In this document: piece by piece, positions 1-20,944 of the stretch | How the letters are laid out: the number at the start of each line of letters is the position of its first letter | Position numbering within the stretch: the stretch's first letter is position 1 | Assembly: GCA_021795965.1 (NCBI GenBank) | Contig: JAJYOU010000006.1 | Location: 1 to 64,000, forward strand | From: Chloroflexota bacterium | GTDB taxonomy: Bacteria > Chloroflexota > Anaerolineae > Anaerolineales > Villigracilaceae | Length of the DNA stretch: 64,000 bases | Direction of reading: 5' to 3' | The notes under the pieces: model-generated | The model's database searches: none | What the model was told of the DNA's origin: nothing | The model's input: the letters and a program-made list of their open reading frames with translations, nothing else | Position numbers and translations under genes: made by a program

Positions 1-237
1 GATGGCATTGAAGGTGGTTATATTACCAAGGGAACTCTTCAGTACATCACTGCCAGTATGGTCATGGTTGCTTCAATCCTGGTCTGGTTACATTTCACTT
101 CCCAATCCAGCATCTGGCTGCAGGGTTTGGGAGGAGTGTTACTGGGCAGTCTCTTCTACGGAGCAGGGCTAATCCTTTTGAAGGTCTCCGAAGTTCAGTC
201 TGTCTTTCGTTTTTTGAAAAATCGCCTGGCAGGATGA
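1..237 (+). CDS. C-terminal end of a MurJ-like lipid II flippase (5' truncated by window)
   Basis: The frame is open from base 1 to a TGA at 235-237 and gives 78 residues. Two hydrophobic segments are visible (around residues 17-32 and 39-60), followed by a short basic tail. The arrangement of a GIEG-like loop, two final membrane helices and a basic end resembles the C-terminus of MurJ/MVF-family lipid II flippases, which export the peptidoglycan precursor. Only the tail is present, so the assignment rests on resemblance and no catalytic residue can be checked. Another polytopic polysaccharide exporter is possible. It converges on the DUF212 gene. Confidence 0.5.
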   Translation, partial: DGIEGGYITKGTLQYITASMVMVASILVWLHFTSQSSIWLQGLGGVLLGSLFYGAGLILLKVSEVQSVFRFLKNRLAG

Positions 238-297
238 TGCCACATGGCGGAGCATTTTTTAAATCCTTCAATCGTTAATTTCAGCCAGATCTATTTC

Positions 298-750
298 CTA
301 TCCAACAATTTTCCAGTAAAGAATTCCCACGGCCAACCCCAGGATAATCCCCCCCAAAACCTCCATGGGTGTATGCCCAAGGACTTCTCGAAGCTGTTTG
401 TCAGAAATCGGGTGACCTGAAAAAAGTTCGTTGATTAATAAATTGATTTTTTCGGCATGTCTGCCTGCTTCACGACGAACTCCGGCTGAGTCGTAAATGA
501 CAATCAGGGTCATCGCAATCGCAAGCGCAAAAGTAGCCGAATTAAATCCTTCATGCAGCCCAATCCCGGTTGTCACGCCCACCATGAGAGATGAATGCGA
601 ACTGGGCATCCCGCCTGCGCTGAAAAGGTAACCCCAATTCCATTTGCCTTTTCGAAAGTATTCAATCGGCACCTTGAGAGTTTGAGCAAAAAACCAGGCA
701 ACACAAGCAGTAAGTAAAGCTGGGTTGTCAAGTAAACCTGAGAGAGGCAT
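298..750 (-). CDS. DUF212 / divergent PAP2-family membrane protein
   Basis: This 150-residue membrane protein has the hallmark of the DUF212 family (YuiD-like, related to acid phosphatases and vanadium haloperoxidases): GGMPSSHSS near residues 46-54, followed by a conserved YDSAGVRREAGRHA stretch and a C-terminal GHTPMEVLGG motif before the last helix. The family is a divergent PAP2 relative; the substrate is unknown. The start follows xseB at once (TAA at 752-754), with an AGGA ribosome-binding site inside the end of xseB. It is therefore the last gene of an xseA-xseB-DUF212 transcript. Family assignment is secure; biochemical role is not. Confidence 0.85.
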   Translation of the reverse strand: MPLSGLLDNPALLTACVAWFFAQTLKVPIEYFRKGKWNWGYLFSAGGMPSSHSSLMVGVTTGIGLHEGFNSATFALAIAMTLIVIYDSAGVRREAGRHAEKINLLINELFSGHPISDKQLREVLGHTPMEVLGGIILGLAVGILYWKIVG

Positions 751-2220: not shown

Positions 2221-2351
2221 TCTGGGGGCTTCTTTTTCGCTCAAACTTAGTGCAGGAAATTTTGGATGATGTACAATACAGTCAGGAAATTTCTCAGAAG
2301 ATGGTAAATCGACCGAATTTAATGACCGGTTCAACCTCTTGAAAATTGCAA

Positions 2352-3380
2352 ATGAAAATTTATTTGAATAAATCAATCCTTCGAAAAGGTTTTACAGTTT
2401 CATTGATGGTGGTTTTAAGCGCCTGCCAGATTTCCCGGAGTCCTGCTCCCACGATTGCGCCAGATGTATTTTACACCCAAGCCGCAGCAACCATCATGTT
2501 TTACCTGTCTCAAACCATCCAGCCAAAACCCAGCCAGACCCCAATCCCATCGACCACCAGCCTCATACCGAGCGTCACCCCGATCTCAGGCTTGGCAGCT
2601 CCTGCTCTGGAAACTGCATCTCTAACCAGATCGGCGCCGCCGGCTTTCCCAAGTGCTACTTCCATCATCATCGATCCGTCAACCGCTCATGGTTGTTACA
2701 ACGCAACCTTTATTTCTGATGTGACCATTCAATACTCCCCGATATTTATTCCAGGCAGTCACTTTACCAAGACCTGGAAAATATTAAATTCTGGCAGTTG
2801 CGACTGGTCGAGAAACATCCAAATTATTTTCGCCGGTGGGGACCGCTTTGGTGCAGATTCCACTGTGATTGACCAGAAGGTGGCTGCAGGTGAAATGGCG
2901 AATATTTCCCTGAATATGATTGCGCCCCAGATGACTGGACTGGTTACCAGCACCTGGCAGCTTGCTACTGAGACAGGCAAACCTTTTGGACCAGTCTTAT
3001 CTGTTGTGATCAACCTTTTGGAAAACCCGGATGCAACCCTCGCCATGGGATGTTTGAACTCGGCACTGATCAAGGATGTTACGATCCCGCCTGGCACCGA
3101 AGTAACACCCGGAGCCAATTTTACGAAGACTTGGCGCTTGAAAAACACGGGCTCCTGCACCTGGACCAAGAATTTTAAAATCACTCATATTGGCGATGAA
3201 ACTTTTGGAGTCATTGCTGGCTTGATTGGACAGGCAGTCGCACCGGGGAATAATATTGAAATTTCACTCGACATGACCGCTCCTGGTTCACCCGGTATTT
3301 TTTCTTCAGCCTGGCAACTGGCAACGGATGATAATCGATTGTTTGGTCAACTTTTTGCCTTTTCAATCGTAGTCAGGTAA
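2352..3380 (+). CDS. Lipoprotein with two NBR1-like (four-tryptophan) Ig domains
   Basis: The 342-residue product starts with a lipoprotein signal peptide (lipobox LSAC, lipidated Cys at residue 25) and a Ser/Thr/Pro-rich linker to about residue 110. Two tandem domains follow, about 113-221 and 230-340. Each starts with a Cys (GCYNA, GCLNS) and carries FTKTW, the Cys-x-Trp of SGSCDW or TGSCTW, and a final W in STWQLA or SAWQLA. This spacing matches the NBR1 central Ig-like (FW) domain, which is common in secreted Chloroflexota proteins. The function is unknown; surface binding is an inference. The start is ATG 2352; a TTG six bases earlier is possible. It is divergent from xseA. Confidence 0.8.
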   Translation: MKIYLNKSILRKGFTVSLMVVLSACQISRSPAPTIAPDVFYTQAAATIMFYLSQTIQPKPSQTPIPSTTSLIPSVTPISGLAAPALETASLTRSAPPAFPSATSIIIDPSTAHGCYNATFISDVTIQYSPIFIPGSHFTKTWKILNSGSCDWSRNIQIIFAGGDRFGADSTVIDQKVAAGEMANISLNMIAPQMTGLVTSTWQLATETGKPFGPVLSVVINLLENPDATLAMGCLNSALIKDVTIPPGTEVTPGANFTKTWRLKNTGSCTWTKNFKITHIGDETFGVIAGLIGQAVAPGNNIEISLDMTAPGSPGIFSSAWQLATDDNRLFGQLFAFSIVVR

Positions 3381-3401: not shown

Positions 3402-3902
3402 ATGAGACACATGTGGGCAAACTGGCGAATGAAATATATTAACAGCGCGGGTCAGGAAACTGGCTGCATTTTCTGCAGTGCCCTCGCCAAAACCGACGAT
3501 AGCAGCAATCTGATTGCACTACGCGGTCAACGTGCCTTTATCATCCTGAATAAATTCCCCTACACCAGCGGGCATGTCATGGTTGCGCCTTTTGCACACG
3601 AACCTGGAATCGAAGACCTCGATCCGCCAACCCGGGCGGAATTGATGGAATTATCCTCCCTTTGCATGACCGCACTGCGGCATGTTTATCACCCGCAGGC
3701 TTTTAACCTGGGTGCGAATATTGGTGAAGCCGCTGGCGCCGGGGTTCCGGGGCATGTCCATCTTCATATCGTACCGCGCTGGAACGGGGACACGAACTTT
3801 ATGTCCTCAATCGGCGAGGTTCGTGTCCTGCCCGAAGATCTGGAAACCACCTATCGACGAATTAAAACCGAATTAATTCGAATGAGTGATCTCCAAAAAT
3901 AG
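3402..3902 (+). CDS. HIT-family hydrolase / Ap4A phosphorylase-like
   Basis: The 166-residue protein shows the histidine-triad signature GHVHLHIVPRW near residues 124-134, in which the middle His attacks the alpha-phosphate of a nucleotide. Upstream are the CIFC pair (CxxC, often a zinc site in this subgroup), the FIILNKFPYTSGHVMVAP strand and LMELS. The N-terminal MWANWRMKYI matches the WxPWRxxY start of the actinobacterial/Chloroflexota Ap4A phosphorylase-like subgroup, supporting the ATG at 3402. It probably acts on dinucleoside polyphosphates or adenylylated molecules in the cytoplasm. It lies 21 bases after the NBR1-like lipoprotein gene and may be cotranscribed with it. Confidence 0.88.
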   Translation: MRHMWANWRMKYINSAGQETGCIFCSALAKTDDSSNLIALRGQRAFIILNKFPYTSGHVMVAPFAHEPGIEDLDPPTRAELMELSSLCMTALRHVYHPQAFNLGANIGEAAGAGVPGHVHLHIVPRWNGDTNFMSSIGEVRVLPEDLETTYRRIKTELIRMSDLQK

Positions 3903-4129: not shown

Positions 4130-5806
4130 ATGAAACCATTTCCCTTGTTCTTGGCTTTTCTCACTGGTTGCCTGGTCTTCTCGAGCTGTCAGGCTGGAGA
4201 AATTCAACACCCTCAAACCCCCACGACCCATTCGCCGCTTTCTTCATCAACCCACCAGGCAAGTTCCTCTCCTGTTCCATCATCCACCCAAATACCCACT
4301 GTCAACCCCACGGGCACCCCCACCGCCCAGCCTCGTCTGACTCTTTCTCCCTCCGGACCTGACCTGGACCAGTTCAGCCCTAAGGTAAATCCCCTGACCT
4401 CCTTGCAGCAGGAGGATCCTTCCCTGCTCAATTTCCCGGCTGTTCTGGTTTCGATCAGCAACATGCCCGTCACAGCACGCCCTCAAGCTGGCACTAGTTT
4501 TGCGCCCTGGATTTACGAAATGTTCATCGGCGAAGGTACAACCCGCTTCATGGGCGTTTTTTATGGGGATTTACCCCGTCGCATTCCCAATGACCCTGGA
4601 GACTGCCCGCTGAATACTGTAATTTTCCAGCCAAAAGGAAGCTGGGTTGGAAACCGGGTCTGGCTTGATGAAAATAAAAATGGCATCCAGGAACCCTGGG
4701 AAGCAGGTATCGGCGGAATTTGTATTTCTCTCGAGGATGAGCAAAGCGCGAAAATAATTGGGAGCACAAGTACTGATTCCAACGGATATTATGCCTTCGA
4801 CACTTCATTACTTCAACCTGGGGGAAAATATGATCTTGTGATGGAACTGCCCTCTGCTTACCAATTTACTTTGCCCCATGTTGGTAACGATGACCAGGAT
4901 AGCGACGCAGATCCCACTTCCGGCAGGATATCTTTTACCAATTCAAATCAAATTGAAACCAACTTGGATGTGGGGCTGGTGCTGACGAAACCTGGACCGG
5001 TAATTGTTGCATCTTCTGATATCGCGCCTGAACGCACCTATGTCGGTCCAATCCGGAGCGGCAGGCTGACATATAACGATTTTGTGGAAATGTACCCGGC
5101 TGGCTGCCTGGTTTATGCCAGCGCCGGAAATGGGATCCGTCAGCGCCTGGAAGGGTGCGAGATAATTTTTGGCGAGCAGCCTTTGCAAAGCCCGAACACG
5201 GCACTCCTCGATGTCGGTCATCTCAAAGAGCTGGCGCAAAAAAACAAGGTTGCGAATCAGCCAGTAAATTACTCTGGCAACCTTTTTGACCCCAACCCTC
5301 CGGACGGTGGTCTGCCAGCAACTTCCCTCTGGACATATTTTCATGCCTTCTCACAGTCCTTCTGGCAGTTCAACCCGGTCTCAGGCAGTTACCTGCGTCT
5401 GACAGATGACGGGGATGGCAAAGGGATTTTCCACCCGGATACGGACCGACTGACCGGCAGACAGCTTGAGTTTGAAAATATCGCCATCATCCTGGCAGAT
5501 TATCAGGTTTTCAGGCACGGTCAGTACGACATCAATCTTTGCTGCGGACTGGAAGGTTACGCCTATCTCTTCCGCGATGGACAAATGTATAAAATTAGAT
5601 GGTCCACGAATAACGGTAGCTGGGAAAAAACAAGCGGTTTACGCCGGCCCCTGCATTTCACCACGGTCGACAAGCAGCCATTTCCCCTCAAACCAGGTCG
5701 CACCTGGGTCAGCATCATGACATTGAATTCCTTTGTCCGGGAGTCGAACCCGGGTCAGTGGCAGGCTAATTTTTCCATGCCGAATGATTACGCTCCCCCC
5801 GATTAG
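4130..5806 (+). CDS. Lipoprotein: DUF3048 (YerB-like) domain interrupted by an SdrD-B domain
   Basis: The 558-residue product has a lipoprotein signal (FSSC, Cys20) and a Ser/Thr/Pro linker to about residue 95. The DUF3048 N-terminal domain begins at about 103 (RPQAGTS 118-124, GEGTTRF 134-140). It is interrupted at about 171-285 by a complete SdrD-B/Cna-B-like domain (GNRVWLDENKNGIQEPWEAG and SNGYYAF). DUF3048 then resumes with GPIRSGR at 306-312 and ends in a C-terminal domain (FRDGQMYKIRW, PLKPGRTWVSI). DUF3048 proteins are secreted and of unknown function. The insertion reads as one continuous frame. The ATG at 4130 gives the proper signal peptide; no Shine-Dalgarno sequence is evident. 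Confidence 0.82.
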   Translation: MKPFPLFLAFLTGCLVFSSCQAGEIQHPQTPTTHSPLSSSTHQASSSPVPSSTQIPTVNPTGTPTAQPRLTLSPSGPDLDQFSPKVNPLTSLQQEDPSLLNFPAVLVSISNMPVTARPQAGTSFAPWIYEMFIGEGTTRFMGVFYGDLPRRIPNDPGDCPLNTVIFQPKGSWVGNRVWLDENKNGIQEPWEAGIGGICISLEDEQSAKIIGSTSTDSNGYYAFDTSLLQPGGKYDLVMELPSAYQFTLPHVGNDDQDSDADPTSGRISFTNSNQIETNLDVGLVLTKPGPVIVASSDIAPERTYVGPIRSGRLTYNDFVEMYPAGCLVYASAGNGIRQRLEGCEIIFGEQPLQSPNTALLDVGHLKELAQKNKVANQPVNYSGNLFDPNPPDGGLPATSLWTYFHAFSQSFWQFNPVSGSYLRLTDDGDGKGIFHPDTDRLTGRQLEFENIAIILADYQVFRHGQYDINLCCGLEGYAYLFRDGQMYKIRWSTNNGSWEKTSGLRRPLHFTTVDKQPFPLKPGRTWVSIMTLNSFVRESNPGQWQANFSMPNDYAPPD

Positions 5807-19191: not shown

Positions 19192-20277
19192 ATGGCTCGT
19201 AAAACACAGGAACTCCTCCCAGCCGTACGTCAGGAAGACAGCGCTAAAAAAACTGTGCTGGACAAAGCTGTCAGCGATATCATTAAGCGCTATGGTGATG
19301 GTTCGATCATGCGCCTTGGCGAAGCACACAGCATGGTTGTAGATTCAATTCCGACCGGGTCACTCTCCCTCGACCTGGCATTGGGGGTTGGCGGTATTCC
19401 ACGTGGACGCATCACTGAAATCTATGGTCCCGAATCTTCCGGGAAAACCACCATCTGTCAGCATATCGTGGCAGAAGCTCAAAAATTAGGGGGCACTGCC
19501 GCCTATATTGACATGGAACACGCCCTCGACCCAGCCTACGCAGCCAGGTGCGGCGTGGATATTGATAACCTGCTGGTTTCACAGCCGGATACCGGCGAAC
19601 AGGCTCTTGAAATTACCGAGACGCTCGTTCGCTCGGGAGCGGTGGATATCGTGGTGGTGGACTCTGTCGCTGCGCTCGTACCCCGCGCAGAACTTGAAGG
19701 AGACATGGGAGATGCTACCATGGGCGTCCAGGCCCGTTTGATGTCACAGGCTCTGCGAAAGCTTTCTGGTGCCATTAACCAGACCAAAACCTGTGTCATT
19801 TTTACCAACCAGTTACGTCAGAAAATTGGCGTCATGTTTGGGAACCCTGAAACCACAACAGGGGGTCAGGCTCTCAAGTTTTATGCATCAGTTCGCCTGG
19901 ATGTGCGTCGGATCCAGGCCATCAAACTGGGCGAAGAAGTCATTGGTAATCGAACCCGCGTCAGGGTCGTCAAGAATAAAGTGGCTCCTCCTTTTCGCAC
20001 TGCCGAATTTGACATCATGTTCAACGAAGGAATTTCCAAATCAGGCGACATGCTCGACCTCGCCACCAAGCTGGAAATCATCACCAAACGCGGGGCATTC
20101 TTCTCGTACGGCGATATTCGCATCGGTCAAGGACGTGAAAATTCCAAAGAATATTTGCGCCTGAACCCTGATCTTTCAAATGAGATTGAATCCGTCATTC
20201 GTCAAAAAGCACTTGGCGGCGATCTAATTCTTCCGATTGATACCTCCGGGGATGACAATGCCGAGGTTGAAGATTAA
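19192..20277 (+). CDS. recA: Recombinase A
   Basis: The 361-residue protein is a full-length RecA: Walker [10 protein letters not shown], the [13 protein letters not shown] segment, the [13 protein letters not shown] Walker B region, the LMSQALRKL loop and the [19 protein letters not shown] sequence. It polymerises on single-stranded DNA to drive homologous recombination and stimulates LexA self-cleavage. No intein is present. The start has GGAG nine bases upstream. The C-terminus is acidic ([10 protein letters not shown]). A LexA-like box in the promoter suggests SOS control. Its 3' end overlaps the next gene by about 20 bases. Confidence 0.98.
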
Positions 20278-20944
20278 TCAACTCCACGCGGGTAAGTCCA
20301 GGAGTGTTGCAAAATACGCAACACGATTTTTGTGCTGCGTATTTTTATTTTCATTGCTCCTGAGCGCCTGCAGTGCAGCACCCAGCCCGACCCCTTTTAT
20401 TGCCCCGCGCAGTATCAGGATTGCACCGTCGGAAACCCTCAGTCCAGTCAACCCAACCGTCTCAGTCGCAGGCAACCCTTCCGTTTCGCCAGGGGTCACA
20501 CCCGGCTCGAGTTTGCAAAACCTGCTAACACTCCCGCCAAACCCAGAAATCACGCTGACTGCAGCGGCGCCATCTGCCACAGCCACCGGTTCAAACCGCT
20601 TGCCCTGCTCAGATGCTTTGATTTACATCGATGATCTAACTTATCGGGATGGGACGATTGTAGGACCGGGTCAGCCAATCGAAAAACAATGGAAAGTGAA
20701 AAACAATGGTTCCTGTGATTGGGATGAGCGCTACAAGTTTAAACTCTCCCCTGGCGACCTTGCCCTGGGTGCCCCGCAAGAAATTGCTCTGACCCCAACC
20801 CTTGCGGATACACTGGCTGTCATCACCATTAATTTTATCGCCCCGCTCGAACCGGGAAATTATCGCACCAGCTGGCGGGCATACAATGCCGAAGGAGTGG
20901 CTTTTGGTGATGCGCTGACCATGGATATTAACGTCAGCCAATAA
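20258..20944 (+). CDS. Lipoprotein with one NBR1-like Ig domain
   Basis: The 228-residue product has a basic n-region, hydrophobic [10 protein letters not shown], lipobox LSAC, a Ser/Thr/Pro linker and one NBR1-like four-tryptophan domain (about 115-228: [15 protein letters not shown], later YRTSWRAYN). It is related to the protein at 2352. The start is uncertain: ATG 20258 follows GGGG by four bases and overlaps recA by 20 bases; ATG 20252 and a TTG at 20330 are alternatives. Two mutually exclusive hairpins lie within the signal-peptide coding region, so expression may depend on read-through from recA. Confidence 0.75.
20304..20351 (+). promoter_or_regulatory. Two overlapping, mutually exclusive hairpins after recA
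   Basis: Hairpin A pairs GTGTTGC (20304-20310) with GCAACAC (20318-20324), followed by GATTTTT. Hairpin B pairs AAAATACGCA (20311-20320) with TGCGTATTTT (20336-20345), extended by CAC/GTG past one mismatch and followed by a U-rich stretch. They share 20318-20324, so only one can form. This is the layout of an attenuator, or two overlapping recA terminators. Confidence 0.5.

Follow-up and report, generated by a model that had tools for sequence, protein, structure and literature searches.

The gene at 4130-5806 on the forward strand of a 64,000-nucleotide stretch of Chloroflexota DNA (contig JAJYOU010000006.1, positions 1 to 64,000; hereafter the window) raises the question of whether an SdrD_B domain can be built into the middle of a DUF3048 domain and, if so, what it might do there. 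The original prediction, made from the sequence letters alone, held that a complete SdrD-B-like domain interrupts the DUF3048 domain of a lipoprotein within one frame, and that this points to adhesin-like surface display. The architectural part of this claim was borne out, while the functional part stood only in so far as it concerns exposure outside the cytoplasm.

An SdrD_B domain within the YerB fold

The gene starts with ATG and encodes a predicted lipoprotein of 558 residues. Within this single open reading frame, Pfam matched the domains in the order DUF3048, SdrD_B and DUF3048_C. The N-terminal DUF3048 profile aligned at residues 89-152 (profile positions 1-64 of 148) and again in a second stretch; SdrD_B aligned at residues 173-282, with profile positions 3-111 of 112 (E 1.4e-24), and DUF3048_C at residues 410-527. 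The protein belongs to both families: PF11258 and PF17479 were matched at 42.4 and 50 bits against curated cut-offs of 25, and PF17210 at 86.9 bits against a cut-off of 29.7. The inserted domain, at about residues 170-288, is as complete as had been claimed.

The motifs on the two sides of the insert normally lie close together, as predicted. For comparison, uninserted DUF3048 proteins from 30 loci of the same class were searched by motif, and 25 of them could be read; the spacing from TRF to G-x-[IV]-RS-x-R was 12 residues in 23 proteins, 13 in one and 16 in one, versus 165 residues from TRF to GPIRSGR in the window protein. TRF lies at 138-140 and GPIRSGR exactly where it had been placed, at 306-312; RPQAGTS starts at R117, one residue off the predicted 118. 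The uninterrupted hairpin between TRF and GP.RS.R, which is usual in DUF3048 though not definitional, is absent here, and the window protein is a structural variant of the family with the same fold.

Sequence comparison with solved structures assigned the middle of the protein to the B domains of staphylococcal SdrD and UafA and the remainder to YerB of Bacillus subtilis (2psb). When a profile of 59 relatives was used, YerB chain residues 16-78 and 76-298 fell on the two flanks of the insert with no gap, and the alignment located the insertion point between FYG[DQ] and VGPIRS. We then have the AlphaFold2 model, built from 91 aligned sequences, 87 of which contain both domains. It reached a mean pLDDT of 91.2 and a pTM of 0.86, with the insert determined as well as the host. 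In this model, strand 137-144 leads into the insert, whose strands run from 172 to 285, and the host continues at strand 304-306. Model residues 84-544 showed the YerB fold (VIA-align against 2psb: Z 30.2, rmsd 2.5, 271 of 290 residues), and residues 169-286 matched 3irp and 10ps with Z 17. As modelled, therefore, the YerB fold of the host closes around the SdrD_B domain, and this is a true insertion, placed at the tip of the hairpin that joins strands 137-144 and 304-306. A serial order of the domains was ruled out by the same closure, seen in the 2psb alignment, AlphaFold2 and VIA-align. A chance match, an assembly accident or a fusion of open reading frames was ruled out because more than 100 genomes and 87 of the 91 aligned proteins share the architecture.

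We also modelled an uninserted tandem paralogue (L078:5515-6765). Its YerB fold was the same (Z 30.5 against 2psb), and the linker that occupies the insertion site was modelled with low confidence. Searched against known structures, this model had 2psb as its sole match, both in Foldseek (one at E <0.001) and in VIA-align (one of 995 chains at Z >=2).

The layout of the parts is given in Table 1. Lipid would be attached at Cys20, judging from the lipobox-like sequence. We infer exposure outside the cytoplasm, the likely location of the window protein, because the signal peptide is accompanied by this lipobox-like cysteine, which 84 of the 87 inserted proteins retain. The tether that follows is predicted by AlphaFold2 to be disordered and is the least conserved part of the protein (0.29).

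Table 1. Parts of the DUF3048/SdrD_B protein and the gene directly upstream, in window coordinates.
Feature	Position	Strand	Basis
HIT-family gene, directly upstream	3402..3902	+	Pfam HIT, E 3.4e-13
Predicted signal peptide with lipobox-like end ..FSSC, Cys20	4130..4189	+	sequence; model helix 5-17
Ser/Thr/Pro-rich tether, residues 21-74	4190..4351	+	pLDDT mostly <50 for residues 21-59
DUF3048/YerB, first piece, residues 86-147 (RPQAG, TRF, strand 137-144)	4385..4570	+	Pfam, alignment, model
Entry linker, residues 148-169, with Cys159	4571..4636	+	Cys159 conserved (86 of 87 inserted proteins)
Inserted SdrD_B domain, residues 170-288	4637..4993	+	Pfam, fold match, invariant acidic positions
Details of the insert: putative Ca-type loop D180-E191, D257-S-D259, D280; Cys198			
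Exit linker, residues 289-302	4994..5035	+	alignment; conservation 0.33
DUF3048/YerB resumed, residues 303-408 (VGPIRSGR, Cys326, Cys343)	5036..5353	+	2psb alignment, VIA-align range 84..544
DUF3048_C part of the YerB domain, residues 409-548	5354..5773	+	Pfam 410-527

Distribution, neighbourhood and history

How widely the insertion occurs was examined at several depths. Within the window's family, 102 of 152 genomes had a match unbroken across the insert, and five more (G004, G037, G049, G069, G151) had fragments ending within it. In a class sample, insert-spanning matches occurred in 22 of 25 genomes of this family and in none of 371 others among the matches listed; these counts were made by eye, and the insert-spanning matches score far above the weakest match listed. 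A phylum sample, which partly overlaps the class sample and was likewise counted by eye, gave 19 of 20 genomes inside the family and 0 of 330 outside at E 1e-20. Of 298 genomes sampled in the window's class, 263 had DUF3048 itself. In a search with PF11258, all matches listed (to about E 4e-30) were single continuous matches. A scan of species genomes, by which alone bacteria outside Chloroflexota were covered for the combination, returned 175 matched stretches, of which 150 were relatives; the 80 of these that were kept and inspected all came from Chloroflexota or taxa within it. An insertion general to DUF3048 was thus ruled out by the class, phylum and PF11258 samples, as the original prediction required, and the distribution in the family together with the absence elsewhere in the samples makes the insert a trait of one clade: it is not a singleton, nor is it a property of DUF3048 as a whole. 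The prediction had also called the combination undescribed. We too found the nested combination of DUF3048 and SdrD_B nowhere in the open-licence literature. Within the window's family, the insert is nevertheless the norm and no rarity.

Of the 80 loci, 67 contain the HIT-family gene. A strict distance rule places it immediately ahead of the DUF3048 gene, in the same orientation, in at least 57 of these; among the 10 that fail the rule, several have open frames that overlap. Other frequent neighbours were genes that we take, from their sequences, to be xseA (55 of 80 loci) and a thiolase (44), as well as a counterpart of the protein at 301-789 (51). Between xseA and the HIT gene, the window also encodes a putative lipoprotein (2346-3380, forward strand) with an N_BRCA1_IG Pfam match in two stretches; just 6 of the 80 related loci have it, and the window has a weaker relative at 20228-20941.

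Sixteen of the 80 loci carry at least two DUF3048 genes, and in 12 of these all copies are inserted. The inserted copies form two paralogue groups within the window's family, often in tandem. In the other four loci (L078, L079, L099, L105) an uninserted copy directly precedes an inserted one; three of them (L078, L079, L105) share the order xseA, NBR1-type Ig lipoprotein, HIT, uninserted DUF3048, inserted DUF3048. The insert is dispensable for the YerB part, since the four uninserted copies, close tandem relatives, do without it. A remnant of an uninserted copy was sought in the window between the HIT and DUF3048 genes, and nothing above chance was found there. The window's genome is about 62% complete, with one DUF3048 gene seen. 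Outside the window, on contig C30 of the same genome (G000, C30:122494-122709, L188), a 288-residue frame contains a second, partial SdrD_B match covering 71 of 112 positions.

Phylogeny was used to ask how often the insert was gained or lost. The host-domain tree requires two changes of insert state, and in a quick tree the uninserted tandem copies were nested among inserted rows with supports of 84 and 92, neither of them starred. In the AU test, a single clade of inserted proteins was not rejected (p 0.587) and had the higher likelihood. The outgroup of the host tree consisted of 19 uninserted rows from 39 loci, the GP.RS motif having missed proteins with GS.RS. The uninserted tandem copies may either have lost the insert or have branched off earlier. 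As for the insert itself, a single branch separated 47 of the 87 insert domains from 20 other SdrD_B domains, with a support of 88, which is below the tool's mark of 95, and with short fragments as three of the 20 comparison domains. The simplest history is one old capture followed by duplication and vertical descent; the domain was probably captured once from SdrD_B modules of the large multidomain proteins that are common in these bacteria.

Two further variants were encountered. Proteins of about 740 residues (L132:5260-7461 and L140:5239-7467) have a FecR domain fused ahead of DUF3048 and SdrD_B at the N terminus; the FecR match in L132 is slightly below the curated cut-off, and a protein in L114 is of similar length. 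In a sister family, a DUF3048 protein (L070:991-2289) has a longer hairpin loop without the insert, possibly an intermediate state before insertion.

Conservation of the insert and its possible role

The insert is conserved almost as strongly as its host. Mean pairwise identity reached 0.48 in the insert and 0.53 in the core, and the two correlated over 3741 pairs (r 0.76). Six residues of the insert (D180, E191, N218, G219, D280 and G282) are invariant in all 87 inserted proteins; position 182 holds Asn (82 proteins) or Asp (5), and D257 and D259 are kept in 84 and 82, respectively. In the host, R117, R139, R309, S310, R312, N450 and W491 are invariant in the same 87 proteins. PMC6232131 describes three bound Ca2+ ions in Sdr B domains and, for the B domain of SdrG, a Ca3 site whose ligands are aspartates from the first and the last strand. 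The conserved residues of the insert, among them D180, E191 and D280, fit these calcium sites when matched by alignment, and the acidic positions of the insert may accordingly be read as candidate Ca2+ ligands.

A second putative stabilising feature is a disulphide between Cys159 of the entry linker and Cys198, which is conserved in 85 of 87 inserted proteins. The pair is specific to the insert: none of the other full-length SdrD_B domains compared has a cysteine at the position of Cys198, and Cys159 lies outside the compared stretch. One protein, identical in L082 and L010, retains Cys159 and has Ala at 198, contrary to a strict pair, which we counted against the role proposed below. The degenerate insert of L099 (5622-7250), next to the uninserted copy at 4304-5590, matches only positions 4-71 of 112 of the SdrD_B profile and has lost both cysteines.

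Taken together, the reading we favour, at a probability of roughly 60%, is that of a lipid-anchored protein with an intact YerB domain, to which a rigid Ig module stabilised by Ca2+ and a disulphide adds an accessory contact within the envelope. Ca2+, the disulphide and tethering at both ends would hold the insert rigidly beside an unchanged YerB domain. YerB would perform its own job in the envelope, and the Ig module would position it on, or reach to, a partner in the wall, the S-layer or the membrane.

Four other readings had to be weighed against the same data. The one originally proposed is adhesin-like display, in which the Ig module itself would attach to the surface of a host, a mineral or a cell, with YerB serving as its carrier. 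Kinship to the B domains of Staphylococcus SdrD and UafA argues for it, as does a predicted extracytoplasmic lipoprotein with a long disordered tether. According to PMC6232131, however, Sdr B domains are spacers that join the ligand-binding A region to the wall and do not bind the ligand themselves, and the window protein has a single B domain and no A region by Pfam; moreover, the host fold is unlikely to be a mere carrier because it keeps its invariant residues. We therefore regard the adhesin reading as unlikely, and only the exposure outside the cytoplasm is retained from it.

The insert could instead act as a regulatory lid, with its Ca2+ state or a ligand of the Ig module altering access to the arginine cluster of YerB. 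It does sit within a hairpin whose two strands bear the invariant R139 and R309, and the pTM of the model suggests a defined relative orientation of the two domains. Strand counting nevertheless pairs R139 with R309 across the two strands, some five residues short of the hairpin tip; at that distance the insert would not have to reach or block them, and the uninserted tandem copies have the same arginines. Such a lid seems to us quite improbable. We would put slightly less weight still on a Ca2+-dependent, disulphide-locked Ig switch or docking arm, through which extracellular Ca2+ or an envelope polymer would control YerB activity; if it existed, the tandem loci would offer a ready-made comparison of inserted and uninserted copies, with and without the arm.

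Finally, the insert might be a neutral passenger, a domain without function of its own that was acquired by a permissive loop. This would suit the uninserted tandem copies in 4 of 80 loci, the persistence of a cysteine-less insert in L099 and the already longer loop in the sister family. It fits poorly with an insert that is near the core in conservation, has acidic positions invariant in 87 of 87 proteins and is retained in two paralogue groups, and we hold it to be very unlikely.

Comparison with known systems

The literature offers little on the host. A lipoproteome paper lists DUF3048 as a lipoprotein of unknown function, and YerB appears in lists of Firmicutes sporulation genes. PMC10849945 has a yerB under cell adhesion (COG1470); we set this aside, as membership in the DUF3048 family is not established there. 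In the open-licence literature, we found no experiment on the window protein or on YerB function, and nothing on Chloroflexi together with 'SdrD B-like'. DUF3048/YerB is widespread, yet no assigned function or other structural relative was found for it.

Among adhesins, the likeness is confined to the B-type stretch. No A region of the MSCRAMM/Sdr type was matched by Pfam or NCBIfam, and the NCBIfam models of SdrC and SdrD, with cut-offs of 1700 and 2500 bits, scored no more than 49 and 47. SD repeats and an LPXTG sortase motif are absent from the 558-residue translation, which ends in ..FSMPNDYAPPD.

Compared with YerB of B. subtilis (2psb), which papers also name a lipoprotein, the window protein has the same fold over nearly its full length and the same RPQ.G, TRF and GP.RS.R motifs. 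The two strands are joined by a direct hairpin in YerB, where the window protein carries some 155 additional residues, and the pair Cys326/Cys343 is characteristic of the window's group, in contrast to YerB. The uninserted tandem paralogues are 39-42% identical to the window protein and keep Cys326/Cys343; 18 to 40 residues of low-complexity linker stand where the Ig domain would sit. A lineage with an added folded module, in which some genomes also have uninserted sisters, therefore offers a natural comparison for the location and contacts of this protein.

The insert, in turn, has the same fold as the SdrD_B domains (PF17210) of SdrD (4jdz, 10ps) and UafA (3irp), with Z 16-17 at about 30% identity, and has in common with the B domains of SdrD and UafA the D-x-N-x-NG-x-Q loop and the terminal D-x-G. 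Unlike the B domains of Staphylococcus, it has two extra cysteines and resides in a predicted lipoprotein. Whereas those domains follow the A region in series, the window protein has a single B domain nested in an unrelated domain. The B-type Ig domain appears here as a nested insert instead of a serial spacer.
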